Assembly (NCBI RefSeq): GCF_014518425.1
Contig: NZ_JACVCU010000006.1
Coordinates: forward strand, 62,001-126,000
Length of the DNA: 64,000 bases
Origin: Terrabacter sp. MAHUQ-38
GTDB taxonomy: Bacteria > Actinomycetota > Actinomycetes > Actinomycetales > Dermatophilaceae
Direction: 5' to 3'
A program made the position numbers and the translations under genes. This document shows, piece after piece, positions 1 to 64,000 of this stretch. How positions within the stretch are numbered: position 1 is the stretch's first letter; every line of letters begins with the position of its first letter. The notes below the pieces were generated by a model. It worked only from the letters and a program-made list of their open reading frames with translations. It did no database searches and was not told the DNA's origin.

Positions 1-55
1 TCTCTCGTAACTCTCGTTAAGTCTTTGGTCTGAGTGGGATTCGAAGACGCCGGTG

Positions 56-89
56 GCGTATGCCGCTGAGCTGGCCCAGCGGCATACGC
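56..89. repeat. Perfect 13-bp hairpin in the rpoB-rpoC intergenic region
   Basis: Arms GCGTATGCCGCTG (56-68) and CAGCGGCATACGC (77-89) pair perfectly around an 8-base loop. The hairpin lies just downstream of the rpoB stop on the minus strand, where the operon would run into rpoC beyond the window edge. There is no T-run after it, so it is more likely an intercistronic RNA structure or a DNA site than a terminator. Both arms contain the window-wide word CGTATGCC/GGCATACG. Positions 1-55 hold no gene I can see. Confidence 0.8.
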
Positions 90-113
90 ACCGCCTGTCG
101 TGTGGTGGCCTTC

Positions 114-5721: not shown

Positions 5722-6680
5722 TCGTCGACCTCGCGACGGTGCTCGTCGCGCACGGGGGCCGTCAGGGCGGCATACGAGTCGGGGCGCCGCGTCGCGAGGA
5801 ACGGGAAGAGCTCGAGCCAGTCGCGGCGCTGAGCCACGTCGAGGTCGGCGACGAGGGCCACGGCCTCGTCGCGCGGCGCCTGCACGAGGATCCGGCCGTA
5901 GGGGTCGGAGATGAACGAGCTGCCGTAGAAGGTGATCAGGCCCTCGGTGCCGAACCGGTTGGGCACGACCATGAAGAGGCCGTTGGCGATGCCGTTGCCG
6001 ACGATGACCTGCTGCCACAACGGCTGGGTGTCGAAGTGGGGGTGGTCGGGCTCGGAGCCGATGGCCGTGGGGTAGCAGAGCACCTCCGCGCCCCCGAGCG
6101 AGTACAGGCGCGCCACCTCGGGGAACCACTCGTCCCAGCACGTCGGGAGGCCGAGCCGCAGCGACGGGTCATCCAGTGTCACAACGGGATAGGCGTCCTC
6201 TGGCGGACCGGGACGGAAGTACCTGTCCTCGTAGTAGCCGGCCGTCACCGGGATGTGCGTCTTGCGGGTGCGCGCGACGACTTCTCCGCTCGGGGCGACG
6301 ACGACCGCGGTGTTGAAGCCGAGGCCGTCGCCGGCGTCGGAGCGCTCGTAGAGGGACGCGTGGACGTGAACGCCGAAGTCGCGCGCGGCCTCGCGGGCGA
6401 AGGCGACCGTCGGACCCGTCTCCAGGTCCTCGGCGGTGGCGGACGGTGTCCCCTCCGGCAGCGCGTCGGCCGGGTAGCGCGACAGCGTCAGCTCCGGCAG
6501 GAAGACGATCCGCGCCCCGGCATCGGCGGCCGTGCGGATGCCGTCACGGAGCGTCTCGACGAGCGCACCGGGGTCATCGACCCACCGGTGCTGGACGAGG
6601 CCCACCCGAACCGGCGGGGCCTGTGGGTCGTCGACACGGGCGAGGGACTCAGGGACGCCGTTGGCCTGGATGAGCTTCAC
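5718..6680 (-). CDS. aguB: N-carbamoylputrescine amidase (carbon-nitrogen hydrolase)
   Basis: It converts N-carbamoylputrescine to putrescine, CO2 and ammonia (EC 3.5.1.53). The nitrilase-superfamily triad is visible: Glu63 in LPELTLSRYP, Lys140 in RKTHIP and Cys181 in GLPTCWDEWFP. The motifs TCWDEWFPE and QPLWQQVIVGNGIANG favour the carbamoylputrescine amidase branch over other C-N hydrolases, and coupling to aguA supports this. The GTG start at 6680 lacks a clear ribosome-binding site, so the true start may lie slightly downstream. At about 300-320 residues it is of normal size. Confidence 0.9.
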   Translation of the reverse strand: MKLIQANGVPESLARVDDPQAPPVRVGLVQHRWVDDPGALVETLRDGIRTAADAGARIVFLPELTLSRYPADALPEGTPSATAEDLETGPTVAFAREAARDFGVHVHASLYERSDAGDGLGFNTAVVVAPSGEVVARTRKTHIPVTAGYYEDRYFRPGPPEDAYPVVTLDDPSLRLGLPTCWDEWFPEVARLYSLGGAEVLCYPTAIGSEPDHPHFDTQPLWQQVIVGNGIANGLFMVVPNRFGTEGLITFYGSSFISDPYGRILVQAPRDEAVALVADLDVAQRRDWLELFPFLATRRPDSYAALTAPVRDEHRREVDE

Positions 6681-6721
6681 AGCGTGCAGTATGCCAACAC
6701 ACGGGGGCTCGCGGGCCTGGC

Positions 6722-9592: not shown

Positions 9593-10857
9593 CGGGAGCC
9601 TCCCGTGGGGAACAGCGTGGACCAGGACGCCTCGTCGGCTTCTGCGGACCCCGACTGCGGCGCGCCGAGCACGCCACCCGGCAGGGTCGTGGGCAGGCCG
9701 GTGGGCACCGGGACGCCCGGCACGGACGGCAGCGGGACACGGGGCACCGGCACTGACGGCGCAGGAACCGAGGGCAGCGGAGCCGAGGGCAGCGGCAGGC
9801 TCGGCAGGTCCGGCAGGCGGCCCACGCCGAGGTTGTCGGCGATCGTGTCGACGTCGGTGTCGAGGGTCACCCAGAGGTTGGTGAAGTCGCCCCTGATCGT
9901 GTTCTGGGCGTTGTTCGGGAACGGGTAGGTCAACAGCAGCTGGTAGCTCTTGGGCAGGTCGTCCCCGGCCTTGTTGAGCTGGCGCAGGATCGGGCTGACG
10001 GCGCGCAGGTTGGCCTCGAGGTCGGCGCGCGACCCGCGGATGACCCGGGTGCCGACCTCCCCCAGGTCGCGCAGCGCTGTCAGCATCGCGGTCAGCTGTC
10101 GACGCTGGTCGGCGAGGATCGTCAGGCCCTTCGGCAGCTCGTCGAGGGCCTTGCCGATCTTCTGCTGGTTCTTCGCGAGGGTGCCCGAGAGCCGGTCGAT
10201 GCTGTTGATCGCCCGGACGATCTCGGACTTCTGCGCGTCGAGCCCGCCGACGAACGTGTTCAGCTGCGTCACGAGGTCCTTGACATCGCTCGTGCGCCCG
10301 CGGAGCGCGTTGTTGAGCTCGGCCTCGATGGTCTTGAGCTGCGCCACGCCACCACCGTTGAGCAGCAAGGACATCGCGCCGAGGACCTCCTCCACCTCGG
10401 GGTTGCGGCTCGTGCGCGCGAGCGGGATGCGGTCGCCCTGGCCCAGGCGGCCCTGCGGCGCCTCGTCGGTCGGCGCGGCGAGCGCGACGTACTTCTCGCC
10501 GAGCAGCGACGTCTGCTTGAGCTCCGCCGTGGCGTTGTCCGGGAGTACGACGTCGCGCGGCAGGCGCAGGTGCACCGTCGCGGTCCATCCCGTGACCTGG
10601 ATGTCCTCGACGGACCCGACGGTGACCTGGTTGACCTTGACCGACGACTGCGGCACGAGGTCGAGCACGTCGGCGAACTCCGCCGTGACCGTGTAGGAGT
10701 CGTCGCCGGTGCCGGCGCCGCCCGGCAGCGGCAGGTCGTAGGCGCTGCAGCCTGAGACGGCGAGGAGAGCCACCAGGCTCAGCGTGAGGGCCACCACGCG
10801 GGTCCTTCTCGGGGGGTGCACGGGGGGCGTGGTCCTCCGTGTGGCGGCATACGTCAT
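9589..10857 (-). CDS. mceE: Mce family lipoprotein, MceE position
   Basis: The 422-residue protein carries a lipoprotein signal with lipobox VSGC (Cys37), as expected for the fifth (LprK-like) Mce subunit. The Mce domain (about 53-130) contains VTAEFADVLDLVPQSSVKVN and ATAELKQTSLLGEKYVAL. A helical stalk follows, and then an unusual Pro-rich tract (about 345-385) built of LPS.P, VP.PS.P units. That tract is probably an extended linker. The gene overlaps both neighbours (ATGA with mceF). Near its start, ACG TAT GCC GCC contains the window-wide octamer. Confidence 0.92.
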   Translation of the reverse strand: MTYAATRRTTPPVHPPRRTRVVALTLSLVALLAVSGCSAYDLPLPGGAGTGDDSYTVTAEFADVLDLVPQSSVKVNQVTVGSVEDIQVTGWTATVHLRLPRDVVLPDNATAELKQTSLLGEKYVALAAPTDEAPQGRLGQGDRIPLARTSRNPEVEEVLGAMSLLLNGGGVAQLKTIEAELNNALRGRTSDVKDLVTQLNTFVGGLDAQKSEIVRAINSIDRLSGTLAKNQQKIGKALDELPKGLTILADQRRQLTAMLTALRDLGEVGTRVIRGSRADLEANLRAVSPILRQLNKAGDDLPKSYQLLLTYPFPNNAQNTIRGDFTNLWVTLDTDVDTIADNLGVGRLPDLPSLPLPSAPLPSVPAPSVPVPRVPLPSVPGVPVPTGLPTTLPGGVLGAPQSGSAEADEASWSTLFPTGGSR

Positions 10858-12068
10858 CGGGAGCCTCCGAGAAGTCCGCCGAGGGTCGGGTCGGCACCGC
10901 GGAGGTTGACGAGCCCGTCGGGCTGCGGAGTGCCTTGCAGCGCCGAGCCGCTCGGCAAGGATGGAAGGGTCAGGAGCTTGGGCAGGATGGACTTCTTGAG
11001 GGAGTCGCAGAGCTTCGTGTTGCCGGTGCGGGTCGGTCCCGTGAGGATCGAGCAGACGAGCAGCAGCGGGTCGTCGAGGCCCTTGGCGTTGTTGCGGGTG
11101 TCGAGCGTGCCGGTCTGGGGGTGGTACGCGTTCTGGAGGTTCGACAACGCGACGGGCGCGTTCTCGAGCAGCTGTGCGAGAGCCTGTCGGTTCTTCGCGA
11201 AGGCGTCGGTGACGGTGACGGCCCGGTCCAGGTTGCTCTTGAGCAGCGCACGGTTGTCGGACACGAAGCCGGACACCTCGTCGACCGCCACGCCGAGGCT
11301 CTCGAGGGTGGCCTTGAGGTTGTCGCGCTCCTCGCTCAGCTGGACGGCGACGGTCGCGAGGTCGGAGTTGAGCCGGCGCACCTGGGCGTTGTTCGTGGCG
11401 AGCATCGAGGTGAAGGACTGGAGGTTCTTCACCGTGCCGAACAGGTCGTCGCGGCTGCCCGAGAGTGTCGAGAGCGCCGTCGACAGGTCACGCACGGTGC
11501 CGTACACCTTCTCGCCGTTGCCGTCGAGGTTGGCGGCCGAGGTGCGGAGCAGCCTGTTGAGGGCGCCGTCCTTGTTGGCGCCGTCAGGCCCCAGCGCGAC
11601 CATGAGGTCGTCGAGGCTCTGCGACACGCGGTCGAGCTCGACCGGAACCGCGGTGCGCTGCATCGGGATCCGCGCGCCGGCCGAGAGCGTCGGGCCGCTC
11701 TCGTAGACCGGGAGCAGCTGCACGTAGCGGTCGGACACGAGCGACGGAGCGACGATCGCTGCCTTGGCCGAGGCCGGGACGCGGTACTTCGCGTCGTAGC
11801 TGAACGTCACGTGCACGTGGTCGCCCTCCGGCGTCACGGTGTCGACCTGGCCGACCTTGACGCCGAGGATCCGCACGTCGGAGCCCGGGTAGAGGCCGAC
11901 CGCGCGGGAGAAGTCGGCGCCCACGGTCGTCTGGCCCTGACGCGGCCAGAAGACGATGCCCGCCGCGACGAGCGCGACGACGACGAGGCCGGTGACGAGC
12001 CTGCCGAGGACCGTCGCCGGACCGTGGAGCCGGCCGAACGGCATACGGGACGCCTGGGGCGCGGGCAT
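10854..12068 (-). CDS. mceD: Mce family protein, MceD position
   Basis: This is the fourth Mce subunit (404 residues). A membrane anchor (VLGRLVTGLVVVALVAAGIV) precedes the MlaD/Mce domain with VGLYPGSDVRILGVKVGQVD. A helical region with SGSRDDLFGTVKNLQSF and a C-terminal section follow. The start ATG overlaps the mceC stop (TGATG). A second in-frame ATG a few codons later (MPFGRLHG) is possible. That ATG itself lies in the octamer CGTATGCC. It functions with MceG, YrbE and the other Mce subunits. Confidence 0.9.
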   Translation of the reverse strand: MPAPQASRMPFGRLHGPATVLGRLVTGLVVVALVAAGIVFWPRQGQTTVGADFSRAVGLYPGSDVRILGVKVGQVDTVTPEGDHVHVTFSYDAKYRVPASAKAAIVAPSLVSDRYVQLLPVYESGPTLSAGARIPMQRTAVPVELDRVSQSLDDLMVALGPDGANKDGALNRLLRTSAANLDGNGEKVYGTVRDLSTALSTLSGSRDDLFGTVKNLQSFTSMLATNNAQVRRLNSDLATVAVQLSEERDNLKATLESLGVAVDEVSGFVSDNRALLKSNLDRAVTVTDAFAKNRQALAQLLENAPVALSNLQNAYHPQTGTLDTRNNAKGLDDPLLLVCSILTGPTRTGNTKLCDSLKKSILPKLLTLPSLPSGSALQGTPQPDGLVNLRGADPTLGGLLGGSR

Positions 12069-13099
12069 CAGCGACCACCTCCGGAGGTGCCGGGAAGGAG
12101 CAGGTCGGGCAGCTGCGTCCCGGGCAGGGCGAGCCCCGGCGCACCGACCGGCACGACGAGGTTGGAGACCCAGGTGTCGAACCACCGGCCAGTGCCCAGC
12201 GTGTTGGCGTACACGCGGGTGAAGGGTGCCATCGCCCGGATCGTCTTCTGCAGGTCGGCGTCGTGCTTCTGGAGCAGCGCAAGGGTCTTGTCGAGCTCGG
12301 CCAGCGCGGGCTTCAGCTGCGCACGGTTGTCGCGCGCGAGGCCGGTCAGCTGCTTCGCGAGCGCCGAGGTGTTGCGGAAGAGCGTGCGGATGTCGTCACG
12401 GCGCTTCACGAGCTCGACCATGAGCAGGTCGGCGTCCTTGATGAGCGTGCTGACCTGCTGGTTGCGGCTGCGCACGAGGCCCGTGACGCTGTTGGCGCGC
12501 TGGAGCAGCGAGCCGAGCTCGGCGTCGCGGCCGGCGATCGTCCGCGACAGGCGCGAGAGGCCGTCGAGGGTGGCCCGGACGTAGTGCGGGCTGTCTCGGA
12601 ACTCGGTGGCGATGACGGTCAGCGACGTCGCCAGCTGGTCGGTGTCGATGCGCTCGGTCGTGGTCGTCAGGTCCTGGAAGGCGTTGATGACGTCGTAGGA
12701 GCTCACCGTGCGCGAGACGGGGATCTGCGCGTCGGCAGCGAGCTGGCCGGTGCCCTTGGGATCGAGCGCGACGTACTTCTCGCCGAGGATCGTCTTCATC
12801 CGGACGGACGCACCGGTCTGCGGGCCGAAGCGCGCGTCCTCGGTGATGACGAAGTCGACGCGCGCGTGGTCGCCCTCGAGGTCGACGCCGGTGACCTTGC
12901 CGACCTTGACGCCGGCGATGCGCACGTCGTCGTCGGGACGGATGCCGCCGGCCTCGGAGAACGCCGCGCTGTATGCCGTGCCGCCGCCGATGAACGGCAG
13001 GCTCGCAGCGTTGAACGCCAGGTAGAGGAGCAGGGCGAGGACGGCCAGGCCGACCGCGCCGATGGGCACGGGGTTGCGCTCGCGGAAGGGCGTGCTCAT
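12068..13099 (-). CDS. mceC: Mce family protein, MceC position
   Basis: The 343-residue subunit has an N-terminal helix (VGLAVLALLLYLAFNAASL) and the Mce domain with SEAGGIRPDDDVRIAGVKVG and KTILGEKYVALDPKG. A long helical stalk (about 150-290) and a short C-terminal part with GRWFDTWVSNL follow. The ATG overlaps the mceB stop (ATGA). The strict overlap of every cistron from mceA to mceF suggests stoichiometric synthesis of the hexamer. Confidence 0.92.
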   Translation of the reverse strand: MSTPFRERNPVPIGAVGLAVLALLLYLAFNAASLPFIGGGTAYSAAFSEAGGIRPDDDVRIAGVKVGKVTGVDLEGDHARVDFVITEDARFGPQTGASVRMKTILGEKYVALDPKGTGQLAADAQIPVSRTVSSYDVINAFQDLTTTTERIDTDQLATSLTVIATEFRDSPHYVRATLDGLSRLSRTIAGRDAELGSLLQRANSVTGLVRSRNQQVSTLIKDADLLMVELVKRRDDIRTLFRNTSALAKQLTGLARDNRAQLKPALAELDKTLALLQKHDADLQKTIRAMAPFTRVYANTLGTGRWFDTWVSNLVVPVGAPGLALPGTQLPDLLLPGTSGGGR

Positions 13100-17111: not shown

Positions 17112-18128
17112 TCAGCTCACCTCGCCCACGAGCTCGGACGGGACGGCATACGCGGTCGTGCTCCGCGTCGTGGACGCGATGGCGCCCGCCGCCACGGTCG
17201 AGGTCTCGAAGGAGCCCGGCGGAGGCGTCACGCCGTTGTCACGACACCAGGCACCCGCCGGGCGCGCGGTACGCCGCACCGAGCCGTCGCTCGTCGGCAG
17301 CTGCAGGGCGATCGGCGGCAGCGGCGGCAGCTCCTGACCCGACTCTGCCGCGAGCTCGTCGGCGTCCTTCTCCTCGGACATGCCGATCGGGCCGACACGC
17401 TGGGCGTTGAGGAACTGGCGGACTACGGGTTCCTCCGAGCTGAGCAGCATCTCGCGCGGGCCGAACATCGCCAGGTGCCGGTGGTAGAGCAGGCCGATGT
17501 TGTCGGGCACCGTGCGCGCCGTGTTGATGTCGTGGGTGACGATGAGGAAGGTCGCCTCGATCTGTGCGTTGAGGTCGACGATGAGCTGGTTGAGGTAGGC
17601 CGTGCGCACGGGGTCGAGGCCGGAGTCGGGCTCGTCGAAGAGGATGATCTCGGGGTCGAGCACGAGGGCGCGGGCGAGCCCGGCCCGCTTGCGCATGCCG
17701 CCGGAGATCTCGCCGGGCAGCTTGCCCTCGGCTCCCTGCAGCCCGACGAGCTCGATCTTCTCGCCCACGATGCGCCTGATCTCCGCCTCGGTCTTCTTCG
17801 TGTGCTCCCGCAGGGGGAACGCGATGTTGTCGTAGAGGTTCATCGACCCGAAGAGGGCGCCGTCCTGGAAGAGGACGCCGAAGAGCTTGCGCACCTCGTA
17901 GAGGTCCGACTCGCGCAGGCGGGTGAGGTCACGGCCGTTGATGACGATCGAGCCGGCGTCGGGCTTGAGCAGGCCGACGAGGGTCTTGAGGAAGACCGAC
18001 TTGCCGGTGCCCGACGGGCCCAGCATGACGGAGATCTCCCCCGCGGGAAGCGTGAGGGTCACGTCCCGCCAGATCGTCTGCGACCCGAAGGTCTTGGTCA
18101 GCCCTGTGACCGCGATCTCCACACCCAT
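17112..18128 (-). CDS. mceG: MceG/MlaF-type ABC ATPase
   Basis: This ATPase powers the Mce importer. Visible motifs are Walker A GPSGTGKS (37-44), signature ISGGMRKRAG (141-150), Walker B IILFDEP (161-167) and the H-loop His199 (VTHD). A long C-terminal extension (about 255-338), rich in Pro, Ser and Thr, is typical of actinobacterial MceG/Mkl, in contrast to MlaF. The start ATG at 18128 has AGGTGG 8 bases upstream. It heads an 11-kb operon. In mycobacteria mkl lies away from the mce operons but still between rplL and rpoB, as I recall; here the whole operon occupies that slot. Confidence 0.94.
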   Translation of the reverse strand: MGVEIAVTGLTKTFGSQTIWRDVTLTLPAGEISVMLGPSGTGKSVFLKTLVGLLKPDAGSIVINGRDLTRLRESDLYEVRKLFGVLFQDGALFGSMNLYDNIAFPLREHTKKTEAEIRRIVGEKIELVGLQGAEGKLPGEISGGMRKRAGLARALVLDPEIILFDEPDSGLDPVRTAYLNQLIVDLNAQIEATFLIVTHDINTARTVPDNIGLLYHRHLAMFGPREMLLSSEEPVVRQFLNAQRVGPIGMSEEKDADELAAESGQELPPLPPIALQLPTSDGSVRRTARPAGAWCRDNGVTPPPGSFETSTVAAGAIASTTRSTTAYAVPSELVGEVS

Positions 18129-23622: not shown

Positions 23623-23830
23623 CTGGGCCTCCTTCCCTTGCGTGGTGGCCGCCGGCGAAGGGGCCCGCAGGGCCTGCACGAAAAGAGCCCCGGCGCAGGG
23701 CGCTCGGGGCTCGCAGCGGCATACGCTCGGTATGCCGTGAGGCTGAGTGTCCTGCGCTGGCTGCCCGCATCGTGCGGGACCTTCGGGAGATCGTGGTTGC
23801 CCACGCCCTCCAACCGGCGGTCATTGGTCG
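23623..23830 (-). ncRNA. rplJ leader with attenuator hairpin (L10 leader candidate)
   Basis: On the minus strand the hairpin GAGCCCCG (23712-23705) / CGGGGCTC (23692-23685) is directly followed by TTTTC, a rho-independent terminator about 60 bases before the rplJ start. Upstream of it lies a second stem, CGGCATAC/GTATGCCG (23737-23730 with 23724-23717). Such a leader is known to bind L10(L12) and control rplJL by attenuation; the family match here is inferred from position and structure. The 3' end of the leader holds the rplJ ribosome-binding site. Confidence 0.65.
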
Positions 23831-44228: not shown

Positions 44229-47200
44229 TCAGACGTTGCGACGGTACTGGCCGCCGACCTCGAAGAAGGCCTCGGTGACCTGCTGGAGCGAGCAGACCCG
44301 AGCGGCACGCATGAGGACGTCGAAGACGTTGCCACCCTCGATCGCCACGGTGCGCAGCTCCTCCAGCGCGGTCTTCGCCTCGAGCTCGTGCTCCTTGCGG
44401 AAGGCGCGGACGCGGGAGAGCTGGCTCTGCTTCTCCTCCTCGGTGCCGCGCGCGAGGACGACCTTGCGCGGGGTCTCGCCCTCGTGCGGGTTGCGGAACG
44501 TGTTGACGCCGATGATCGGCAGGCTGCCGTCGTGCTTGCGGTGCTCGTAGAGCATCGACTCGTCCTGGATGCGGCCGCGCTGGTAGCCGGTCTCCATGGC
44601 GCCGAGCACGCCGCCGCGCTCGGTGATGCGGTCGAACTCCTTGAGGACGGCCGCCTCGACGAGGTCGGTGAGCTCGTCGATGACGAAGGAGCCCTGGAGC
44701 GGGTTCTCGTTCATCGCGAGACCCCACTCGCGGTTGATGATGAGCTGGATGGCGAGCGCGCGACGCACCGACTCCTCCGACGGAGTGGTCACGGCCTCGT
44801 CGTAGGCGTTGGTGTGCAACGAGTTGGCGTTGTCGTAGATGGCGATGAGTGCCTGCAGCGTGGTGCGGATGTCGTTGAAGTCCATCTCCTGCGCGTGCAG
44901 GGACCGGCCCGACGTCTGCACGTGGTACTTCAGCTTCTGGCTGCGGTCGTTGGCGCCGTACTTCTCCTTCATCGCGACCGCCCAGATGCGACGGGCGACG
45001 CGGCCCAGCACGGAGTACTCGGGATCCATGCCGTTGCTGAAGAAGAACGACAGGTTCGGCGCGAACTCGTCGACCTTCATGCCACGCGCGAGGTAGCTCT
45101 CGACGTAGGTGAACCCGTTGGCGAGGGTGAAGGCGAGCTGGCTGATGGGGTTGGCCCCGGCCTCGGCGATGTGGTAGCCGGAGATGCTCACCGAGTAGAA
45201 GTTGCGGACCTGGTGCTCGATGAACCACTGCTGGATGTCGGCCATCATCTTCAGGCTGAACTCGGTGCTGAAGATGCAGGTGTTCTGGCCCTGGTCCTCC
45301 TTGAGGATGTCGGCCTGCACCGTGCCCCGGACGTTGGCGAGGGCGTATGCCGTGAGCTCGGCGCGCTCGTCGTCGCTGGGCTCGCGGCCCTCCCGCGCGG
45401 TGAAGGCGTCGACCTGCTGGTCGATCGCGGTGTTGAGGAAGAAGGCGAGGATCGTCGGCGCGGGCCCGTTGATCGTCATCGAGACCGACGTGGTCGGCGA
45501 GACGAGGTCGAAGCCGTCGTAGAGCGCCTTCATGTCGTCGAGCGTCGCGATGGAGACCCCGGACGTGCCGACCTTGCCGTAGACGTCGGGGCGCGGGTCG
45601 GGGTCGCGGCCGTAGAGGGTCACGGAGTCGAAGGCCGTCGACAGGCGGGTCGCCGGCTGACCATGGGAGAGGAGCTTGAAGCGGCGGTTGGTGCGGAAGG
45701 GGTCGCCCTCGCCGGCGAACATGCGGGCTGGGTCCTCCCCCTCGCGCTTGAACGGGAAGACGCCGGCCGTGAAGGGGTAGTAGCCGGGGAGGTTCTCGCG
45801 GCGCAGGAAGCTGACCAGCTCGCCGTGGTCGCGGTAGCGCGGGAGGGCGACGCGCGGGATCTTGTTGCCCGACAGCGACTCTCGGGTCAGCGGGTTGCGG
45901 ATCTCCTTGTCGCGGATGCGGACGACCTGCTCGTCGCCGGAGTAGGACTCGACGACCGACGGCCACGCGGCGACGGCCTCGCCGACCTCGGCCGGCACGT
46001 CCTTGCGCGCCGCCTCGAGGAGGGACTCGACGCCGTCCGAGGCCGCCCCGGAGTCGGTGAGCTCGCCCCGCACGGACTCGAGCCTCTGCACGCGGGCGGC
46101 CGCGGCGGCATACGCCTCCGTCTTCTCGTGGTAGCCGCGGACCGTCTCGCTGATCTCGGCGAGGTAGCGCACCCGGGCCGCGGGGACGATGGTCGCGATG
46201 CGGGTCGACTGCTTCGTCGCCACGGGCGGCAGGACGCCCTCCTCGACGGGCATGCCCTTGTCGGAGAGGAGCTTTCGCAGCTCCTGGTAGAGCGCGGTGA
46301 CGCCGTCGTCGTTGAAGGTGGCGGCCGACGTGCCGTAGACGGGCATGTCGGCGGGACTCTTGCCGAACGCCTCGCGGTTGCGCACCATCTGCCGACCGAC
46401 GTCACGCAGGGCGTCCTCGGCGCCGCGGCGCTCGAACTTGTTGATGGCCACGACGTCGGCCTGGTCGAGCATGTCGATCTTCTCGAGCTGGCTGCTTGCG
46501 CCGAACTCGGGCGTCATGACGTAGAGCGAGACGTCGGCGTAGTCGACGATGGCGGCGTCGCCCTGGCCGATGCCCGGCGTCTCGAGCACGACGAGGTCGA
46601 AACCGGCGGCCTTGACGACGGACAGGACGTCGTCGAGGTGCGTCGGCACCTGAGAGCCGCCGCGCGTCGCGAGGCTGCGGAAGAAGACGCGGTCGCCGTC
46701 GAGCGAGCTCATGCGGATGCGGTCGCCCAGGAGGGCGCCGCCGCCGCGGCTGCGGGTCGGGTCGACGGCGAGGACGGCGACGCGGAGCTTGTCCTGCTGG
46801 TCCAGGCGGAGCCTGCGGACGAGCTCGTCGGTGAGGCTCGACTTGCCGGAGCCGCCGGTGCCGGTGATGCCGAGGACGGGCATCCGGCGGCGGGAGGCTG
46901 CCTCGCGGATGGCCGCGAGGGTCGCCTCGTCGATGTCGCCCTCCTGCGCGCCCGTGATCGCGCGCGCCACCGCTGCACGCTCCCCGGCGAGGACAGCCTC
47001 GAGCGCCGGCGCACCGATCTCCCACGGGTCGAAGTCGCAGTCGGCGACGACCTGGTTGATCATGCCCGCGAGACCGAGGCGCTGGCCGTCCTCCGGGCTG
47101 AAGATGGTGACCCCCGAGTCGCGCAGCCGGGCGATCTCGTCGGGGACGATGACGCCCCCGCCCCCGCCGACGACCCGGACATGCCCGGCGCCGTTCTCCT

Positions 47201-48150: not shown

Positions 48151-50283
48151 TCAGGCGTGGGCGGTGCGTGCCGGCTCGCTCGACGTCGCCGTCCGCGCGA
48201 GTCCCTCGAGCACGGCGAGAGCGCCGTCGACGTCGCCGATCTCGCTCCGGTGGGCCAGCGGCAGGCCGCTGAGGATGCTGCCGGGCTCGACGACTCCCCA
48301 GACGTCCGTGCCTGAGCCGATGTAGTCGGAGTACTTCGACGGCAGGTACGGGTTGCGCGAGTGGGTCTCGCTGGTGCTCGCGTCGTTGACGAGCAGGACG
48401 TCGAGGCGCGTGCAGAGGCTGAGGTACTCGAGGTAGTCGACGAAGGGCTTCGCGATGACGACACCCGTGAGCCCGGCATCGGCGACGTCGGCCGCGAGGT
48501 CGTCCGGTCTGCGGGAGAAGACGTGCAGCCGGAGGCGGTCCCGGAGCGAGGGGTCGACCCGCCGGAGGGCCTCGAGGACCTCGTCGAGGGTCCGCGTGCC
48601 GTAGAGGACGCCGAAGTAGCCGATGTGGACCCTGCCCGGCTCCAGGTCGTAGCTGCTGGGCACGAGGCGGTAGAGCTCGGCCGGCGGCACGGGGTGCGGC
48701 CGCACGGTGGCGACTTCCCGGGCCCGAGCCGCCACGGCGGGGTCGGGGAAGTCCTCCAGCATGTAGTCGCGCTGGTGCTCGTTGGTGAACAGGATCTCGT
48801 CGGCGAGGGCGAAGGCCAACGTGACGCTCCACAGGTAGAGGTTGTCCGACTCGGGCGGCACGACCCCGCGGGCTTCGAGCGCGGCTCGGAACTCGGCCAG
48901 GAGCGCAGCATCCGCAGGCCCCGAGCTCTCGCGCTCGGACCCGTCGATGTCGTGCAGCACCGGGTCGGAGAACTCCGCCACCCAGCGCGCCCCGGGGTGT
49001 CGCAGCGTGTAGAGGGCCGCGACGACGTGCGGCGCGACGGGCGCGCTGCGGCTGTAGACGGAGCGGTAGCGGCCGGCGAGGCCCTGCCGCTCGAGCAGCT
49101 CGACCCCGCGGCGTGCGAAGGCGGTCACGCCGGGCCACCAGAACCACACCGGCTTCGTGGGAACGGTCCGGACCTGGTCGACGTACTCGGACCACACGAG
49201 GTCCGACGACTGGTCGACGCGGTGCTCGTCGTCGCGCTGAGTGGTGAGCACGTCGACGACCGTGCCCGCGTCGCGGATCCGGCGGGCAGCCACGTTGGCC
49301 GAGGTGTCCACGACGGGGACCGCATACTGCAGGATCGCCAGGTCGCGGGCGACGCCGCGGTTGAGCCGGGTGGGCTGCACGGTCCACAGGCCACGCGCAC
49401 GTCGCTCGGCCACGACGTCGCCGTGCGCCTCCGGGTGGGCTCGGAGGTGGCGGTTCAGCTGGTCGGTCTCCTCGACCACCATCCACGCCCGCGCGGCGAG
49501 CGCCGACCGGTCCGTGAGCGGCAGGCGGAGGAGCCGCGCGATGCCTGCGAGAAGGGCCCCGGGGGTCTCCTGGCGTATGCCGCGGGCGGCCACCGAGCGG
49601 TAGTGCACCGCGTCGTCGGCCGTCGAGCAGAACGCCACCTCGGGCTGCCCGGCGAGGAGGAGCCGACCGCAGAGGACGGCGTCCTCGCCGGTCGGCAGGT
49701 CGGCGTCGAAGCCCGTACGCCGGACCAGGTCGATCGGCAGCATGGTTGCGGCGAGGCTGCCGAGCGCGGAGGGTGCGCGACCGAGCGCGACCACCTGGCC
49801 CTGGCACGCGAGCTGCCGCTCGAGCCTGGGGGCGCTGAAGACTGCGGGCCGCCCGGCCGGCGGCGTGTCGACGTGGGCCGCGACGGCGACCCGTCCGTCA
49901 CCGCACCGGTCCCGCAGCGCGCGCAGCAGGTTCGGCGAGACGCGGTCGTCGTCGTGGACGAACATCACCCAGTGCCCCAGTGCGGCCGCGAGGCCGACGT
50001 TCTTCGCCGCGGCGCGCGTGCAGGCGTCGAGGGCCACGTGCCGCAGCTGGAACCCCGGGTGGCCGGAGCGGACCCGCGCGACGGCAGCGACGGTGCCGTC
50101 GTCGGGACCGTGCTGCAGGAGGACGACCTCGTACCGCTCGTGGGCGAGGGTCTGCCGGGCCAGCGACCGGAGGCAGGCGCCGACCCATGCCGACCCGCGG
50201 TCGGTCGTGACGATGACGGACACATCGGGCCTGTCGAACGTGCGGTCCACGAGTCTCTCCACGGGTCTGCCGGCGACGGTCAC
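48151..50283 (-). CDS. Two-domain glycosyltransferase (GT-A plus GT-B)
   Basis: The 710-residue protein joins an N-terminal GT2-like domain to a C-terminal GT4-like domain. The first has VSVIVTTDRGSAWVGACLRS, then HDDDRVSPNLLRAL as the DxD-type metal motif (about residues 112-125). The second (about 365-700) has WWPGVTAFARRGVEL, VRPHPVPPAELYRLVP, IGYFGVLYGTRTL and NPYLPSKYSDYIGSG, a donor-binding segment. No transmembrane helix is present. It would add two sugars to an acceptor, perhaps in surface-polymer assembly. GTG at 50283 lacks a clear ribosome-binding site; a GTG at 50250 follows GGAGAG and may be the real start. It is convergent with marR. Confidence 0.82.
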   Translation of the reverse strand: MTVAGRPVERLVDRTFDRPDVSVIVTTDRGSAWVGACLRSLARQTLAHERYEVVLLQHGPDDGTVAAVARVRSGHPGFQLRHVALDACTRAAAKNVGLAAALGHWVMFVHDDDRVSPNLLRALRDRCGDGRVAVAAHVDTPPAGRPAVFSAPRLERQLACQGQVVALGRAPSALGSLAATMLPIDLVRRTGFDADLPTGEDAVLCGRLLLAGQPEVAFCSTADDAVHYRSVAARGIRQETPGALLAGIARLLRLPLTDRSALAARAWMVVEETDQLNRHLRAHPEAHGDVVAERRARGLWTVQPTRLNRGVARDLAILQYAVPVVDTSANVAARRIRDAGTVVDVLTTQRDDEHRVDQSSDLVWSEYVDQVRTVPTKPVWFWWPGVTAFARRGVELLERQGLAGRYRSVYSRSAPVAPHVVAALYTLRHPGARWVAEFSDPVLHDIDGSERESSGPADAALLAEFRAALEARGVVPPESDNLYLWSVTLAFALADEILFTNEHQRDYMLEDFPDPAVAARAREVATVRPHPVPPAELYRLVPSSYDLEPGRVHIGYFGVLYGTRTLDEVLEALRRVDPSLRDRLRLHVFSRRPDDLAADVADAGLTGVVIAKPFVDYLEYLSLCTRLDVLLVNDASTSETHSRNPYLPSKYSDYIGSGTDVWGVVEPGSILSGLPLAHRSEIGDVDGALAVLEGLARTATSSEPARTAHA

Positions 50284-51978: not shown

Positions 51979-53217
51979 ATGCCCGACTTCCCGCTGCCGT
52001 CCGCCGACCACCTCACCTGGCTCGCGGAGCAGCGCCGGCGGCTCGCCGCGTTCGTGCGCGACGCCCAGCGTCCCGGTGGCGGCTTCGGCTGGCTGACCGA
52101 CGACGGGAACCTCGACCCGTCGCGGGGCGTCGAGCTGTGGATCACGGCCCGGATGACGCACGTCGCGGCCCTGGCCGTGCTCGAGGGCGACACGGCGTAC
52201 GGCGAGGTCGTCGACCACGGCGTGGCGACGTTCGCACCGGGCGGCCTGCTCCACGACCCCCAGCACGGGGGCTGGTACGCGTCGGTCCAGCCCGACGGGT
52301 CTCCCGACGTCGCCGACAAGCGCGCCTACGAGCACGCGTTCGTCGTCCTGGCCGCCTCGAGCGCGTCGGCGGCGCGGCGGGCCGGCGCCGACGACCTGCT
52401 CGATGCGGCGTTGCAGACCTTCGAGCAACGGTTCTGGAGCGAGTCGGAGGGTCTGGCCGTCGACGTCTGGGACCGCAGCTGGACCGTCCTCGAGGACTAC
52501 CGCGGCGTCAACGCAAACATGCACTCGCTCGAGGCGCTCCTCGCGGCCTGGGACGTCACCCGAGACCCGCGGTGGCTCGGTCACGCGCTGCGGATCACCG
52601 AGCGCGTCGTGCACGGTTTCGCGCGACAGGAGAACTACCGGCTGCCCGAACACTTCGACGCCGGCTGGCGCCCGCGGCACGAGTACAACCGCGACCTGCC
52701 GGCCGACCCGTTCCGCCCCTACGGCGTGACCCCCGGGCACCTGCTCGAGTGGTCGCGTCTGGCCCTGCAGCTGCGGCGCGCCCTCGGCGCAGAGGCGCCC
52801 GCGTGGCTGCTCGACGACGCGCGGTCGCTCTTCGACGTCGCCGTGCACGAGGGCTGGGACGCCGACGCGCAGGAGGGCTTCGTCTACACCACCGACTTCG
52901 AGGGGCGACCCGTCGTGCGAGACCGCCTGCACTGGGTCGTCACCGAGGCCATCGCCGCGGCCCGCACGCTCCACCTCGCCACAGGCGACCCCACGTATGC
53001 CGCGTGGTACGACCGCTGGTGGCGGCACGCGCGCGACCACTTCGTCGACGCCGACAACGGCTCGTGGCGGCACGAGCTGACGCCCGACCTGACGCCGTCG
53101 AGGACGGTGTGGCGTGGACGCCCGGACGTCTACCACGCCTACCAGGCCTGCCTGTCGGGTGCGCTCGGCGAGATCACGTCGTTCGTCGGGGCGCTGCGGG
53201 AGGGCGCGCTGCGCTGA
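51979..53217 (+). CDS. AGE-family sugar isomerase/epimerase
   Basis: The 412-residue (alpha/alpha)6-barrel protein belongs to the N-acylglucosamine 2-epimerase superfamily. RGVELWITARMTHVAALAVL, YEHAFVVLAASSA, GVNANMHSLEALLAAWDVT and YNRDLPADPFRPYGVTPGHL carry the conserved Arg/His/Glu. The late HWVVTEAIAA and PDVYHAYQACL match the sulfoquinovose/mannose isomerase branch (YihS-like). It probably isomerises an aldose and ketose. CACACT lies about 9 bases before the ATG. Exact substrate not established. Confidence 0.85.
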   Translation: MPDFPLPSADHLTWLAEQRRRLAAFVRDAQRPGGGFGWLTDDGNLDPSRGVELWITARMTHVAALAVLEGDTAYGEVVDHGVATFAPGGLLHDPQHGGWYASVQPDGSPDVADKRAYEHAFVVLAASSASAARRAGADDLLDAALQTFEQRFWSESEGLAVDVWDRSWTVLEDYRGVNANMHSLEALLAAWDVTRDPRWLGHALRITERVVHGFARQENYRLPEHFDAGWRPRHEYNRDLPADPFRPYGVTPGHLLEWSRLALQLRRALGAEAPAWLLDDARSLFDVAVHEGWDADAQEGFVYTTDFEGRPVVRDRLHWVVTEAIAAARTLHLATGDPTYAAWYDRWWRHARDHFVDADNGSWRHELTPDLTPSRTVWRGRPDVYHAYQACLSGALGEITSFVGALREGALR

Positions 53218-53233: not shown

Positions 53234-54481
53234 TCAGCCGAGGACGCGGTCGAGGAAGGCGTTGCCGAAGGTGCGGTCCGGGTCCACCCGGTCGCGCAGG
53301 GCCCGGAAGTCCGACATCCGCGGGTACATCGGCTCCAGGTCGGCGGCCTCCGCGACGAAGCACTTGCCCCAGTGGGGTCTCGCCCCGAGCGGCAGCAGCG
53401 CCGCCTCGATGGCCGGCAGGACGGCATACACCCGCTCGACGTCGCGCAGCCACGTGAAGTGCACCCCGAGAACGTCGTGGCCGTATGCGCTGCTCAGCCA
53501 GTGCTCGTCGGCCGCGACGGTGCGCAGCTCGCAGACCTGCAGCACCGGGGCCATCCGCTCACCGAGGGCGCGGAGCCGCTCGATGGCGGTCAGCGCGTGC
53601 TCGCGTGGCAGGAGGTACTCGCTCTGCAGCTCCTCGCCGCGGCTCGGCGTGAACTCCATCCGGAAGTGCGGCAGCCGATCGAGCCACGGGCCGGGCAGGC
53701 CTCCCTGCTGCGTCACCGACTCGGTCGCACCGCCCTCGAGCATGTGCATCGTCGTCGTCGCCGCGAGGGCACCGAACAGCTCGGTGGGCGCGTCGTCGGC
53801 GCGGCTCTTGAGCCACACCTGCTCGATCCCGGCGTCGGTCCAGCGGGTGAAGAGGCTCACGCTGTAGGCGCTCTTCGTGATCGTCTCGAGCTCGCCGACC
53901 AGCGCGTCCCACGCGAGGCCGGTGTAGACGTCCTGGCGGACCTCGAAGGTGGGCTCGATGTCGAGCGTCACGGCCGTGACGACACCGAGCGCGCCGAGCG
54001 CCACGACGCTGCCGTCGAAGTCGGCGTCGCCTCGGCTGGTTTTGCGGATCTCGCCGTCAGAGCCCACGATGTCCAACGACGCGACGGACGTTGCGAGAGA
54101 GCCGTTCTCGACACCGGACCCGTGCGTCCCCGTCGCGACGGCGCCGGCGACCGAGATGTGCGGCAGCGACGCGAGGTTGGCCAGCGCCCAGCCCGCAGCC
54201 TGCAGCTGGGTCGCCACCTCGCCGTATGCCGCCCGGCCCGTGACGCGCGCCCTGCGGGTGCTTTCGTCGACGTCCACGGCGGTCGGGATGTCGGCGAGGG
54301 AGACCAGCACGCCGGCGTCGCTGTCCGTGATGTCGGTGAGGTCGGTGAACGAGTGGCGGGAGCCGAGCGCCCGCACCCGTGCCTCGCGCGCGACGACGTC
54401 CTGGAGCTCGTCGACAGACCGAGGCCGCTCGATGCGGGCCCGGTACGTGTGGTTGCCGGCCCAGTTCGTCTCGATGCTCAT
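53234..54481 (-). CDS. aldO: Alditol oxidase
   Basis: The 415-residue FAD enzyme of the VAO family oxidises polyols such as xylitol, sorbitol or arabitol at C1, producing H2O2 (EC 1.1.3.41). N-terminal NWAGN, RALGSRHSF with the covalent-FAD His43, and ANLASLPHISVAGAVATGTH are diagnostic. PHFRMEFTPSRGEELQSEYL and ARPHWGKCF are also those of Streptomyces AldO as I remember them. It follows the mmsB permease by 25 bases, so it is probably the last gene of the arabinose operon. No ribosome-binding site is obvious at the ATG. Confidence 0.88.
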   Translation of the reverse strand: MSIETNWAGNHTYRARIERPRSVDELQDVVAREARVRALGSRHSFTDLTDITDSDAGVLVSLADIPTAVDVDESTRRARVTGRAAYGEVATQLQAAGWALANLASLPHISVAGAVATGTHGSGVENGSLATSVASLDIVGSDGEIRKTSRGDADFDGSVVALGALGVVTAVTLDIEPTFEVRQDVYTGLAWDALVGELETITKSAYSVSLFTRWTDAGIEQVWLKSRADDAPTELFGALAATTTMHMLEGGATESVTQQGGLPGPWLDRLPHFRMEFTPSRGEELQSEYLLPREHALTAIERLRALGERMAPVLQVCELRTVAADEHWLSSAYGHDVLGVHFTWLRDVERVYAVLPAIEAALLPLGARPHWGKCFVAEAADLEPMYPRMSDFRALRDRVDPDRTFGNAFLDRVLG

Positions 54482-58914: not shown

Positions 58915-60456
58915 TCAGAGGCGTGCGGCGAGGCGGTGGTAGGCCGCGCTCCAGCGCAGCTCCTGGCGCAGGCTCTCGGGTGTCGTGTCGGCGTCGATGA
59001 CGACGAGCTCGGTCGAGATCATCTCCGCGAGGTCGCGGAACTCCTCGGTGCCGATCGCGGTCGACAGGACCGTGTGGTGTGGGCCGCCGGACAGCAGCCA
59101 TGACTCGGCCGACGTCGAGAGGTTCGGGCGCGGCTCCCACACGGCGCAGGCGACGGGCAGCCGGGGCAGGTCCTCGTCGGGCTCGACGACGTCGATCTCG
59201 TTGAGGGTCAGGCGGAACCGGCCCCCGAGGTCGCTCATGCCGACGACCACGCCCGGCCCGGGGGCGGCCGTGAACTTCAGGCGCACCGGGTCCTCCCGGC
59301 CTCCGATGCCCAGCGGGTGGATCTCCAGGCTCGGTTGCCGGCTCGCGATCGTCGGGCACACCTCGAGCATGTGCGCGCCGAGGATCTTCTCCTCGCCCGG
59401 CACGAGGTGGTACGTGTAGTCCTCCATGAAGGATGTGCCGCCCGGCACTCCCTGGGCCATCGCCTTCGCGGTGCGCAGCAGCACCGAGGTCTTCCAGTCG
59501 CCCTCACCGCCGAAGCCGTAGCCGTCGGCCATCAGCCGCTGCACGGCCAGGCCGGGCAGCTGCCGCAGCCCGCCGAGGTCCTCGAAGTTCGTCGTGAACG
59601 CCCTGAAGCCGCCGTCGGTCAGGAACGCCCGCAGGCCTGCCTCGATCCGCGCGCCGTAGCGCAGCGACTCGTGCCGCTCGCCGCCGCGACGCAGCTCGGG
59701 CACGACGGCATACGTCTGCTCGTACTCGGCGACCAGCGTGTCGATCTCGGCGTCGGCCACCGCGTCGACGACCTCGACGAGGTCGTTGACGCCGTACGTG
59801 TTGACCGACACCCCGAACCGCAGCTGCGCCTCGACCTTGTCGCCCTCGGTGACCGCGACGTCGCGCATGTTGTCGCCGAACCGGGCCAGCCGCAGCGTGC
59901 GCAGCTCGGCCACGCCGGCGGCCGCGCGGCCCCAGGCGCCGATCCGCTCGACCACGGCCGGGTTGCTCACGTGCCCGGCGACGACCTTGCGAGCCACCCC
60001 GAGGCGTGCGCCGACGAACCCGAACTCCCGGTCACCGTGGGCGGCCTGGTTGAGGTTCATGAAGTCCATGTCGATCGTGGACCACGGCAGCTCGGCCCCG
60101 GCCTGCGTGTGCAGGTGCAGCATCGGCTTGCGCAGGGCGTCGAGCCCCGTGATCCACATCTTGGCCGGCGAGAACGTGTGCATCCACGTGATCACCCCGA
60201 TGCAGCCCGCCGACGCGTTCGCCTCCAGGACCGCCGCGTGGATGGCGGCCGCGTCGGCGAGGATCGGCTTCCATACGACCCGCGCGGGCAGCACGCCACT
60301 CGCGTCGATCTCCTTCGCGATCGCCTGCGACTGGTCGGCCACCTGCCGCAACGTCTCCTCGCCGTAGAGGTGCTGGCTGCCGGTGAGGAACCAGACCTCT
60401 CGCGCGGCGCCGCCGGCGTGGCCGGCCGTCGTTGCGGTCGTGGTGGTCGCGGTCAT
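58915..60456 (-). CDS. araA: L-arabinose isomerase
   Basis: It converts L-arabinose to L-ribulose (EC 5.3.1.4). The 513 residues are slightly longer than usual due to a Thr/Ala/Gly head. [68 protein letters not shown] and [20 protein letters not shown] are diagnostic and include catalytic Glu/His residues. The ATG has AAGGAG upstream. It follows araD in the operon. Confidence 0.97.
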
Positions 60457-61204: not shown

Positions 61205-62964
61205 GCCGCCTCACCGCCTTCGCTGGACTCCTGCTCGGGAGTCGTCGTGTCCGTCGCGTCGACGGAGCCGGACTTGCCTGCAATCGCCTTACGTCGCAGG
61301 GCCTTCAGCCGCTTCATGACGTCGTTGGCGCCGCGGCCGAAGTAGTCGTGCAGACACACGTACTCCTCGAACAGCGGGTCGTATGCCGTCGCGCCGGCCT
61401 CGTCGGGCACGAAGGCCGCGCGCTCCACCCGCCCCATGCTGGCGGCGGCCGTGGCGACGTCCGGGTAGGCACCCGCCGCCACCGCGGCGTGGATCGCCGA
61501 ACCGAGAGCCGGGCCCTGCGCGGAGCCGATGACCGAGAGGGGGAGCCGCGTCACGTCGGCATAGATCTGCATGAGGAGGCGGTTCTTCGCGAGACCGCCG
61601 GCGATGATGAGCTCGGTCACCGGCACGCCACTGTCGCGGAACGTCTCGAGGATGACGCGCGTGCCGAAGGCCGTCGACTCGAGCAGTGCCCGGTACACGT
61701 CCTCGGGGCGCGTGGCGAGGGTCTGCCCGACGACGGCGCCCGACAGCTCGTGGTCGACGAGGACGGAGCGGTTTCCGCTGTGCCAGTCGAGGGCGACGAG
61801 CCCGTGCTCCCCGACGGCCTGGGCCGCCGCCTTCTCGGTCAGCAGCTCGTGCGCCGAGAGCCCCCGACGGGAGGCCTCCTCGGCGTAGTCCGCCGGGAAC
61901 CCGGTGCGCGTGAACCACCCGAAGATGTCGCCGACGCCGGACTGGCCCGCCTCGTAGCCGTAGAGCCCCTCGATGATGCCGCCGTCGACGACACCGCACA
62001 TGCCCGGGACCTCTCGCAGCACGTCGCTGCTCATGACGTGGCACGTCGAGGTGCCCATGATCGCGACCATCTGCCCGGGCGCGGTCGCCTGCGCGGCCGG
62101 AGCGGTCACGTGCGCGTCGACGTTGCCGACGGCGACCGCGATGCCCTCGGGCAGGCCGGTCCACGCCGCCGCCTCGGCGGTCAGCCGTCCCGCGACCGAG
62201 CCGAGCTCACCGATCGGGTGGTCGAGCTTGTCGTCGACGAACGACTCGAAGTCGGGGTTGAGCGCTGCCAGGAACTCGCGCGACGGGTACGCCCCGTCCT
62301 GGCGGATGCCCTTGTAGCCGGCCGTGCACGCGTTGCGGACGTAGGTGCCGCACAGCTGCCACACGATCCAGTCGGCGGCCTCCACCCACCGCTCCGTGGC
62401 GGCATACACCTGGGGGTCCTCCTCGAGGACCTGCAGCGCCTTGGCGAACTCCCACTCGGAGCTGATCAGGCCGCCGTAGCGCGGCAGCCACGACTCGCCA
62501 CGCTCGGCCGCGAGCGCGTTGATCCGGTCGGCCTGACCCTGGGCGGCGTGGTGGCGCCACAGCTTGACCCAGGCGTGCGGACGGGCGGACCACTCGGGCA
62601 GCTCACACAGCGGCACGCCGTCAGCCGTCGTCGGGAGCACGGTGCACGCGGTGAAGTCGGTGGCGATGCCTATGACGTCGGCCGGGTCGATGCCGGCAGC
62701 GGCGACCGCCTCGGGCACCGCGTGGCGCAGCACGTCGCGGTAGTCCTGCGGCACCTGCAGCGCCCACTCGGGCGGGAGCGACGGGGTGTCCGAGGACGCT
62801 CCGGGCAGCCGGTCGGTTACGACCGCATGGCTGTACTCGTGGACTGCAGAACCGAGCTCGGCGCCGTCGGAGACGCGGACGACGAGGGCCCGCCCCGAGA
62901 GAGTCCCGTAGTCGACGCCGACGACGTACTGCGGCGGGTTGCCAACGGTGGCGGTCTCGGTCAT
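61201..62964 (-). CDS. araB: Ribulokinase
   Basis: It phosphorylates L-ribulose (EC 2.7.1.16). The 587-residue FGGY kinase has YVVGVDYGTLSGRALVVRVS at the N-terminus, IGIATDFTACTVLPT, AVAVGNVDAHVTAPAA and IIAGGLAKNRLLMQIYADVT. The length is in the family range; the C-terminus adds a short Gly/Ser/Glu tail. ATG overlaps the lacI stop. Confidence 0.96.
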   Translation of the reverse strand: MTETATVGNPPQYVVGVDYGTLSGRALVVRVSDGAELGSAVHEYSHAVVTDRLPGASSDTPSLPPEWALQVPQDYRDVLRHAVPEAVAAAGIDPADVIGIATDFTACTVLPTTADGVPLCELPEWSARPHAWVKLWRHHAAQGQADRINALAAERGESWLPRYGGLISSEWEFAKALQVLEEDPQVYAATERWVEAADWIVWQLCGTYVRNACTAGYKGIRQDGAYPSREFLAALNPDFESFVDDKLDHPIGELGSVAGRLTAEAAAWTGLPEGIAVAVGNVDAHVTAPAAQATAPGQMVAIMGTSTCHVMSSDVLREVPGMCGVVDGGIIEGLYGYEAGQSGVGDIFGWFTRTGFPADYAEEASRRGLSAHELLTEKAAAQAVGEHGLVALDWHSGNRSVLVDHELSGAVVGQTLATRPEDVYRALLESTAFGTRVILETFRDSGVPVTELIIAGGLAKNRLLMQIYADVTRLPLSVIGSAQGPALGSAIHAAVAAGAYPDVATAAASMGRVERAAFVPDEAGATAYDPLFEEYVCLHDYFGRGANDVMKRLKALRRKAIAGKSGSVDATDTTTPEQESSEGGEAA

Positions 62965-63992
62965 GTGGCTTGGCTCCTGGTCTGGCCGGGCGGGGCGCTG
63001 CTCGCCCGGACGATGAGTTCGGGGTCGATGAGGCTGGGGACCTGGTCGGTCTCGCCGGAGATGGCGGCGGTGAGCATCGAGATCGCCTCGCGGCCGATCG
63101 CGGCGAAGTCCTGTCGGACGGTCGTGAGCGGCGGGATGAGGTACTCGGCCTCGGGCACGTCGTCGAAGCCGACGACGCTCACGTCGCGCGGCACCGACCG
63201 ACCGGCCTCGTGCAGGGCGCGCAGCACACCGATCGCCATCTGGTCGTTGGCGGCGAACACCGCTGTCACGTCAGGGTTCTCGGCCAGCGCAAGCCCGGCA
63301 CGGTAACCGCTCCCGGCGCTCCAGTCCCCCGACACCGGCTCCATCGGACGGTGCCCGGCGGCCACCATCTCGGCGCGCCAGCCCTCGGCACGGGCCCGTG
63401 ACTCGGCCCAGTCGAGCGGTCCGGTCACGTGGGCGATCTCGACGTGGCCGAGGTCCATGAGGTGCCGGGTCGCGAGGCGGGCTCCGGCGACGTTGTCGAC
63501 GCCGACGGTGCGCCGCGCGCGGGTCAGGTCACCCTCGACGATGACGAAGGGCAGCCGGGCGCTGCGCGAGCGGGCCACCTCGAGCGCTTCGTCGTGGCCG
63601 GCGATGACGACGATGCCCTCGACGGCGAGCCGGTCGAGGTGGTCGACGGCGGCGTCGAAGCCCTCGCGGGTCATCTCGGCGAGCGACACGGACGAGGCGA
63701 AGAAGCCGGCCTCGCGGGCCGCCGTGTTCACCGTGCGGTGCACGCTGGTCGGCCCGAAGAGCGTCGAGGCCGTCGTGATGATGCCGATCGTCGCCGACCG
63801 ACCGCGCACGAGGGTGCGCGCCGCGGTGTTGGGCCTGTAGCCGAGCCGCTCGATGGCCTGGAGCACGCGCTCGCGAGTCTCGGGCCGGATGCTCGACGCA
63901 CCGTTGATGACGCGCGAGACCGTCTGGTGCGAGACGCCGGCCAGCCGGGCGACGTCCTGCATGACGGGCGCACGTGACACGGTGTCGCTCAT
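62961..63992 (-). CDS. LacI-family transcriptional regulator (arabinose operon)
   Basis: The 343-residue regulator has an N-terminal HTH (MQDVARLAGVSHQTVSRVIN, residues 11-30), hinge helix PNTAARTLVRGRSATIGII and a periplasmic-binding-type effector domain. It leads the operon lacI-araB-araD-araA, each junction overlapping or close. It probably represses these genes and the chvE transporter unless arabinose is present. The promoter lies beyond the window edge. Confidence 0.93.
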   Translation of the reverse strand: MSDTVSRAPVMQDVARLAGVSHQTVSRVINGASSIRPETRERVLQAIERLGYRPNTAARTLVRGRSATIGIITTASTLFGPTSVHRTVNTAAREAGFFASSVSLAEMTREGFDAAVDHLDRLAVEGIVVIAGHDEALEVARSRSARLPFVIVEGDLTRARRTVGVDNVAGARLATRHLMDLGHVEIAHVTGPLDWAESRARAEGWRAEMVAAGHRPMEPVSGDWSAGSGYRAGLALAENPDVTAVFAANDQMAIGVLRALHEAGRSVPRDVSVVGFDDVPEAEYLIPPLTTVRQDFAAIGREAISMLTAAISGETDQVPSLIDPELIVRASSAPPGQTRSQAT

Positions 63993-64000
63993 GGGGTTCT

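Follow-up and report, generated by a model that had tools for sequence, protein, structure and literature searches.

A short, highly iterated word in Terrabacter and related Dermatophilaceae as a probable DNA uptake sequence

The word and its sites at the ribosomal protein locus

The window, by which we mean a whole stretch of 64,000 nucleotides from the genome of Terrabacter sp. MAHUQ-38 (contig NZ_JACVCU010000006.1, positions 62,001 to 126,000), carries rpoB, rplL, rplJ, rplA, rplK, nusG, secE, an mce-type gene and araA, as identified with Pfam. Genes and spacers of the window are dotted with a short word, CGGCATAC, which is analysed here as a candidate DNA uptake sequence (DUS). The genome to which the window belongs (G000) comprises 5,156,829 bases in 18 contigs.

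A first-pass annotation of the window had drawn attention to an octamer, GGCATACG, with its counterpart CGTATGCC. All 21 exact copies that it claimed are present at their positions, 14 as GGCATACG and seven as CGTATGCC. Its estimate of about two copies by chance is right as to the enrichment but slightly generous as a figure: in 100 dinucleotide-preserving shuffles GGCATACG has a mean of 0.67 copies and a maximum of 3, and an order-2 Markov model predicts about 1. The near matches that it added are real, but one of them (AGTATGCC) sits at 36198 and not at 36199, and two more, at 6688 (AGTATGCC) and 12970 (TGTATGCC), were overlooked. The octamer, however, is not the best description of the element, because the base preceding GGCATAC is C in 29 of its 30 occurrences in the window, while the next base is G in 21 of the 30. 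The core is therefore CGGCATAC, found 29 times in the window as against 0.92 expected (order-2 Markov model). Nineteen of these sites are genic, nine are intergenic and one lies at a gene edge, by the calls of a home-made gene finder. The genic sites fall in the codon frames that had been read from the octamer, namely, TAT-GCC (12), GCA-TAC (4), CGT-ATG-CCG (2) and GGC-ATA (1). The sites, with the flanking genes of the inverted pairs named by Pfam (L10, L1 and L11 for the ribosomal proteins), are as follows; L002, L003 and L005 are compared loci.

58 to 87, no single strand: inverted CGGCATAC pair (58 minus and 80 plus), hairpin 3' of rpoB; the rpoB end is 27 bases away and the next gene lies beyond the window
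5768 to 5775, plus: genic, TAT-GCC
10845 to 10852, plus: genic, TAT-GCC
12039 to 12046, plus: genic, CGT-ATG-CCG
12971 to 12978, minus: genic, GCA-TAC
17144 to 17151, plus: genic, TAT-GCC
18563 to 18570, plus: intergenic
19936 to 19943, minus: genic, CGT-ATG-CCG, as at 12039
23717 to 23737, no single strand: inverted CGGCATAC pair (23717 plus and 23730 minus), hairpin 5' of rplJ; L002 keeps both copies, L003 one of the two
26564 to 26571, plus: intergenic
29484 to 29491, plus: genic, TAT-GCC
31175 to 31195, no single strand: inverted CGGCATAC pair (31175 plus and 31188 minus), hairpin between rplK and rplA; L002 keeps both copies, L003 and L005 neither
33323 to 33330, plus: intergenic
36199 to 36206, minus: genic, TAT-GCC
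37744 to 37751, plus: genic, TAT-GCC
39249 to 39256, plus: at gene edge
40862 to 40869, plus: genic, TAT-GCC
45345 to 45352, minus: genic, GCA-TAC
46106 to 46113, plus: genic, TAT-GCC
49575 to 49582, minus: genic, GGC-ATA
52995 to 53002, minus: genic, TAT-GCC
53422 to 53429, plus: genic, TAT-GCC
54224 to 54231, minus: genic, GCA-TAC
59706 to 59713, plus: genic, TAT-GCC
61381 to 61388, minus: genic, GCA-TAC
62400 to 62407, plus: genic, TAT-GCC

The window's rplA protein (Ribosomal_L1 in Pfam) is 97% identical to its counterparts in Terrabacter aerolatus and in Intrasporangiaceae bacterium URHB0013. Conservation of the word was followed in a 20-kb region around rplA, where nine of 11 sites can be aligned, with 8-mers of equal GC content as the background. 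In T. aerolatus eight of the nine sites are intact (background 45%).

Abundance, orientation and action on DNA

Genome-wide, G000 has 2,024 copies of CGGCATAC, 1,018 forward and 1,006 reverse, or about one per 2.5 kb, and the eight other genomes of the genus have 1,423 to 2,358. The word spelled backwards, CATACGGC, which serves as the control, is found 142 times forward and 167 times in reverse in G000, a count that is itself inflated because CATACGGC is contained in CGGCATACGGC. A stretch of 400 kb sampled from contig C1 contains 167 copies of CGGCATAC as against 8.9 expected. The genome-wide count, a check that the first-pass annotation had proposed, thus comes out far above the control and not near the expectation.

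The 400 kb sample and the window together make up 464 kb of G000 with 196 sites, 149 of them in genes, 45 in spacers and two at edges. No strand polarity is seen, as had been surmised from the window: the split is 92 plus to 75 minus in the C1 sample, and 127 plus to 115 minus in 20 stretches along the 4.16 Mb single-contig genome of another genus, where no one-sided stretch was found among those with at least eight sites. Spacing of the sites in G000 is significantly even (P 0.0024). When low GC is used as a proxy for recently acquired DNA, sites are five times fewer in low-GC five-kb blocks (eight sites in 17 blocks vs 186 in the 75 others). One site-free low-GC stretch (L084) contains a phage integrase and a C5 methylase; in another low-GC stretch (L096) mobile genes could not be demonstrated.

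Codon choice indicates that synonymous positions yield to the word. In G000, TAT is used for 85 of the 116 tyrosine codons (73%) whose neighbours complete the motif, vs 88 of 2,273 (4%) elsewhere, and GCA before TAC for 37 of 76 alanine codons in the motif context vs 14 of 206 outside it. The shift recurs in G122, of genus g18 (TAT in 68 of 74 codons in context vs 352 of 1,698 elsewhere). Two genomes with a different word have no TAT in the CGGCATAC context (0 of 14 in G130, 0 of 4 in G097). Selection on the DNA with forcing of rare codons, suspected from the window, is borne out, and the enrichment is not explained by a single codon-pair preference, which the first-pass annotation had wished to see checked. 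Within the genes of G000 the word is antisense in 98 cases and sense in 51 (n=149), a split comparable to the 245 to 123 of the neisserial uptake sequence (PMC2346458).

Close pairs, defined as neighbouring sites at most 45 bases apart, are mostly opposite-facing: G000 has six such pairs and four in tandem, G122 has 14 and none. All but one of the 20 opposite-facing pairs in the two genomes occupy spacers; 18 of these 19 are on the downstream side of a gene end, and the remaining one is the pair 5' of rplJ. This agrees with the arrangement reported for Neisseria meningitidis, where the pairs number 94 tail-to-tail, 124 tail-to-head, 10 head-to-head and three intragenic (PMC1852404). Separately, three overlapping tandem copies, CGGCATACGGCATACGGCATAC, were seen at L085:9144-9165.

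Dialects and competence genes in the family

Words were counted on both strands of 186 genomes of the family; for the most part, a genome in which one word abounds has few copies of the rest. The word CGGCATACG reaches at least 500 copies in about 70 of the 186 by a hand tally. A dialect, CGGCGTAC, exceeds 1,000 copies in 11 genomes; these include G129 (4,185; control 207), G130 (3,903), G060 (2,618), G069 (2,529) and G031 (2,216), and another, CGGCATCC, exceeds 2,000 in seven, among them G082 (4,480; control 262), G034 (3,949), G071 (3,838) and G024 (3,816). A switch has occurred within a single genus, g26, in which G126 has 1,463 copies of CGGCGTAC and four of CGGCATACG, while G127 and G033 have 1,361 and 527 of CGGCATACG. 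Mixed cases exist: g54 has CGGCATCC with some CGGCATACG, and in g71 CGGCATAC is accompanied by CGGCGTAC in G180 and G183. Raised but non-dominant counts are seen in g2 and in G000 itself (1,239 of CGGCATCC and 870 of CGGCGTAC), and G009 is intermediate for CGGCATCC (23 vs 8 in 80 kb; 1,336 vs 310 genome-wide).

The 16 genomes of g63 carry 797 to 1,860 copies of a word unrelated to these, CCCCCTTCG, and the three of g67 carry 1,317 to 1,939; the other 167 genomes have no more than 80. The word is about twelvefold over-represented in 80 kb of G097 (L162-L165), and both strands carry it alike. Two named Janibacter loci (L007, L008) have 13 copies of CCCCCTTC in 41 kb; since the CCCCCTTCG word is thus frequent in named Janibacter loci, g63 is probably Janibacter. 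None of the four words (CGGCATAC, CGGCGTAC, CGGCATCC and CCCCCTTCG) is strong in g9, g10, g11, g14 or g15 in these counts, and no candidate word was seen in 80 kb samples of G207 and G067. In G023 (g16; L178-L181, L197) the word is found inside a longer consensus of about 20 bases, AGCYCAGCGGCATACGGC, at 34 sites; an extended motif is also present in the uptake signal sequence (USS) of Haemophilus influenzae (PMC1852404). Two further observations concern other words: in G125 (L166-L169) CCGCATCG occurs 55 times vs 12, possibly yet another word, and in G065 (L174-L177), which is without CGGCATAC, strong enrichment is seen for a number of words, AAGGTGTA and ACCTACAC among them, for which a local repeat family may account.

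Outside the family the scan covered CGGCATAC only, in 396 genomes of the order, 34 of them of the family and 362 others. In the 362 genomes of other families the count never exceeds 180, and the genome with that count has a control of 195; the ratio of word to control goes up to about 3 to 4 in some of these genomes, at counts of 131 or less.

Genes for DNA uptake are widespread in the family. ComEC is found in 180 of the 186 genomes and ComEA in all 20 of the ComEC loci examined, ComEA of G000 having the Pfam domains HHH_3 and SLBB. TadE is present in all 35 genomes chosen for it, and PilM, a marker of the type IVa pilus, in seven of the 186. In Micrococcus luteus, transformation needs comEA-comEC and the tad-1 Flp pilus, and the terms 'uptake sequence' and 'specificity' are absent from the available part of that study (PMC8467076). 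The tadA gene linked to prfB in G000 is split into two parts, at C13:116198-117214 and 125840-126181 (L228:18198-19301, L207:7840-8181). About 8.6 kb separate them and include a serine recombinase, that is, an element interrupts what is likely a gene of the competence pilus. G126 has a tadC fragment next to another serine recombinase (L209:10415-11883), 33% identical to that of G000, which probably marks the entry of a second element into this pilus cluster. Competence genes that carry insertions have been described elsewhere (PMC4774983).

An uptake sequence weighed against other readings

We consider CGGCATAC to be probably a DNA uptake sequence for transformation by way of the Tad pilus and ComEA-ComEC in Actinomycetota, an explanation that the first-pass annotation had not named and that fits the dialects, the replacement word, the scarcity in low-GC DNA and the hairpin pairs at gene ends. 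On this proposal, a surface DNA receptor of the transformation machinery, possibly a protein linked to the Tad pilus or to ComEA, would prefer CGGCATAC as a short self-tag, so that fragments bearing the word would enter the cell and recombine at a higher rate. This bias of uptake, together with homologous recombination, would then spread the tag over the genome and keep it there (molecular drive), which would leave it in genes and spacers alike, without strand polarity, and would leave recently arrived DNA poor in it. Were the preference of the receptor to change, the whole genome would be expected to drift towards a different dialect or word.

The two known systems offer the closest comparison. 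The hosts here, being Actinomycetota, have no outer membrane, unlike the Neisseriaceae. The word differs from that of neisserial DUS, and the pilus genes are of the Tad/Flp and not the type IVa kind; from the USS of Pasteurellaceae it differs in being unrelated in sequence and in host, and unlike either system it is known from genomes alone. The genomic pattern is nevertheless the same. DUS are found in 943 to 5,918 copies per genome, a range that includes G000, and have lineage dialects (PMC3630211). They are both genic and intergenic, with a bias inside genes and no general bias of orientation (PMC2346458), and their inverted pairs form hairpins after genes (PMC1852404). Integrated elements have an atypical DUS distribution (PMC7371117), as the low-GC blocks here are poor in sites. 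The Pasteurellaceae, too, do not all share one word, and in some species the motif is extended (PMC2346458, PMC1852404). The word thus appears to work like a DUS, to judge from the hallmarks of such sequences that a genome can display, while strict membership of the class depends on uptake behaviour.

Several results weigh against an uptake sequence. No uptake or transformation experiment in the family (Dermatophilaceae) was found in the literature. ComEC and TadE are present in motif-poor genomes too, and therefore the machinery alone does not predict the motif; a receptor for the word was not found in a comparison of ComEA made by eye on part of the alignment (20 loci), and at the Tad loci the search covered a mapping of orthologues. 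Because tadA is split in G000, the strain may not be competent now. The totals of close pairs, 10 in G000 and 14 in G122, are above the simulated means (4.1 and 7.1) but within the maxima (12 and 18), and the downstream position of 18 of 19 pairs is a raw count. Conservation is uneven: strain URHB0013 has only five of the nine sites intact (background 44%), and Knoellia neither of its two alignable ones (background 41%). The even spacing of G000 is not significant in G122 (P 0.35). The favoured orientation in genes is not uniform, since the antisense to sense split, for the word proper to each genome, varies from 79/61 in G122 and 31/17 in G059 to 22/29 in G130, 26/39 in G034 and 19/35 in G024. 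In G059, CGGCGTAC is scarcer outside genes (0.30 per kb) than inside (0.76), and codon usage may therefore contribute there. Finally, the approximately 20 common bases in g16 could also fit a dispersed repeat.

Among other readings, a binding site of a chromosomal protein (of the nucleoid, structural or regulatory), kept by selection at about 2,000 places, would account for the constraint on DNA in genes and spacers and for the fairly even spacing in G000, though not in G122. It would also require thousands of sites to switch dialect together, once inside one genus, and it gives no reason to expect hairpin pairs at gene ends or low-GC blocks poor in sites; we regard it as unlikely. The word could instead be created by a DNA methyltransferase or by a bias of mutation or repair, and such an origin has been proposed for the palindromic HIP1 of cyanobacteria, a highly iterated short word that has lineage variants and is denser than the word here. 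Variation of the word at the genus level and an adenine within CGGCATAC that could be methylated are in keeping with this idea. However, CGGCATAC is not its own reverse complement, which rules out a palindrome of the HIP type; within a fixed 8-base context the usual choice of synonymous codon gives way at 73 to 92%; a mutational bias should act in the low-GC blocks as well; and g63 and g67 have an unrelated word. A methylase or bias is accordingly the more doubtful of these two, and neither a nucleoid-protein site nor a methylase site alone predicts the dialects, the replacement word, the low-GC scarcity and the hairpin pairs together.

Chi, the signal for RecBCD or AdnAB, and KOPS, which orient FtsK, are short over-represented words of chromosomes too, and the copy number here is near that of Chi in Escherichia coli. 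Such words are strand-polar, whereas CGGCATAC has no polarity in the samples, and this largely refutes both, including the segregation signal that the first-pass annotation had listed, which finds no polarity along the 4.16 Mb contig of the relative. RecC, moreover, is present in 14 of 30 chosen genomes and was not found in the motif-rich G002, G015, G025, G030, G012, G034 and G130, so that RecBCD does not separate motif-rich from motif-poor genomes; Chi or KOPS is very improbable. Lowest of all we place an origin of the sites as remnants of a mobile palindrome or dispersed repeat, another suggestion made from the window. The common bases at the G023 sites and a tandem triplet at C1:114144 of G000 speak for it, but in G000 and G122 flanking bases are weakly preferred and not common to the sites, which disfavours it in these genomes; the core is non-palindromic, and sites fall synonymously in codons.

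The evidence leans, with somewhat less assurance, towards a system of uptake signals that would be the first in Actinomycetota, and likewise the first in bacteria lacking an outer membrane, with at least four words (CGGCATAC, CGGCGTAC, CGGCATCC and the unrelated CCCCCTTCG), a receptor linked to the Tad pilus, and a word replaced genome-wide more than once, once within one genus. A review of 2016 places sequence-specific DNA uptake in two families, both Gram-negative, in the part available (PMC5031613), and no uptake sequence is reported for mycobacteria in the accessible text of another paper (PMC10526031). Among the literature matches listed, none concerns an uptake sequence in Actinomycetota, which does not establish absence from print, as preprints and most subscription papers were outside the search; the two papers that matched the word itself are, by their titles, unrelated.

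A third, independent case, in Gram-positives, would, if true, mean that self-tagging of DNA evolves repeatedly and needs neither an outer membrane nor a type IVa pilus. In the search for the receptor and in tests of molecular drive, the switches of dialect, including the one within g26, and the unrelated word of g63 and g67 would serve as natural experiments. The word could also aid routine genetics in soil actinobacteria that transform with difficulty.

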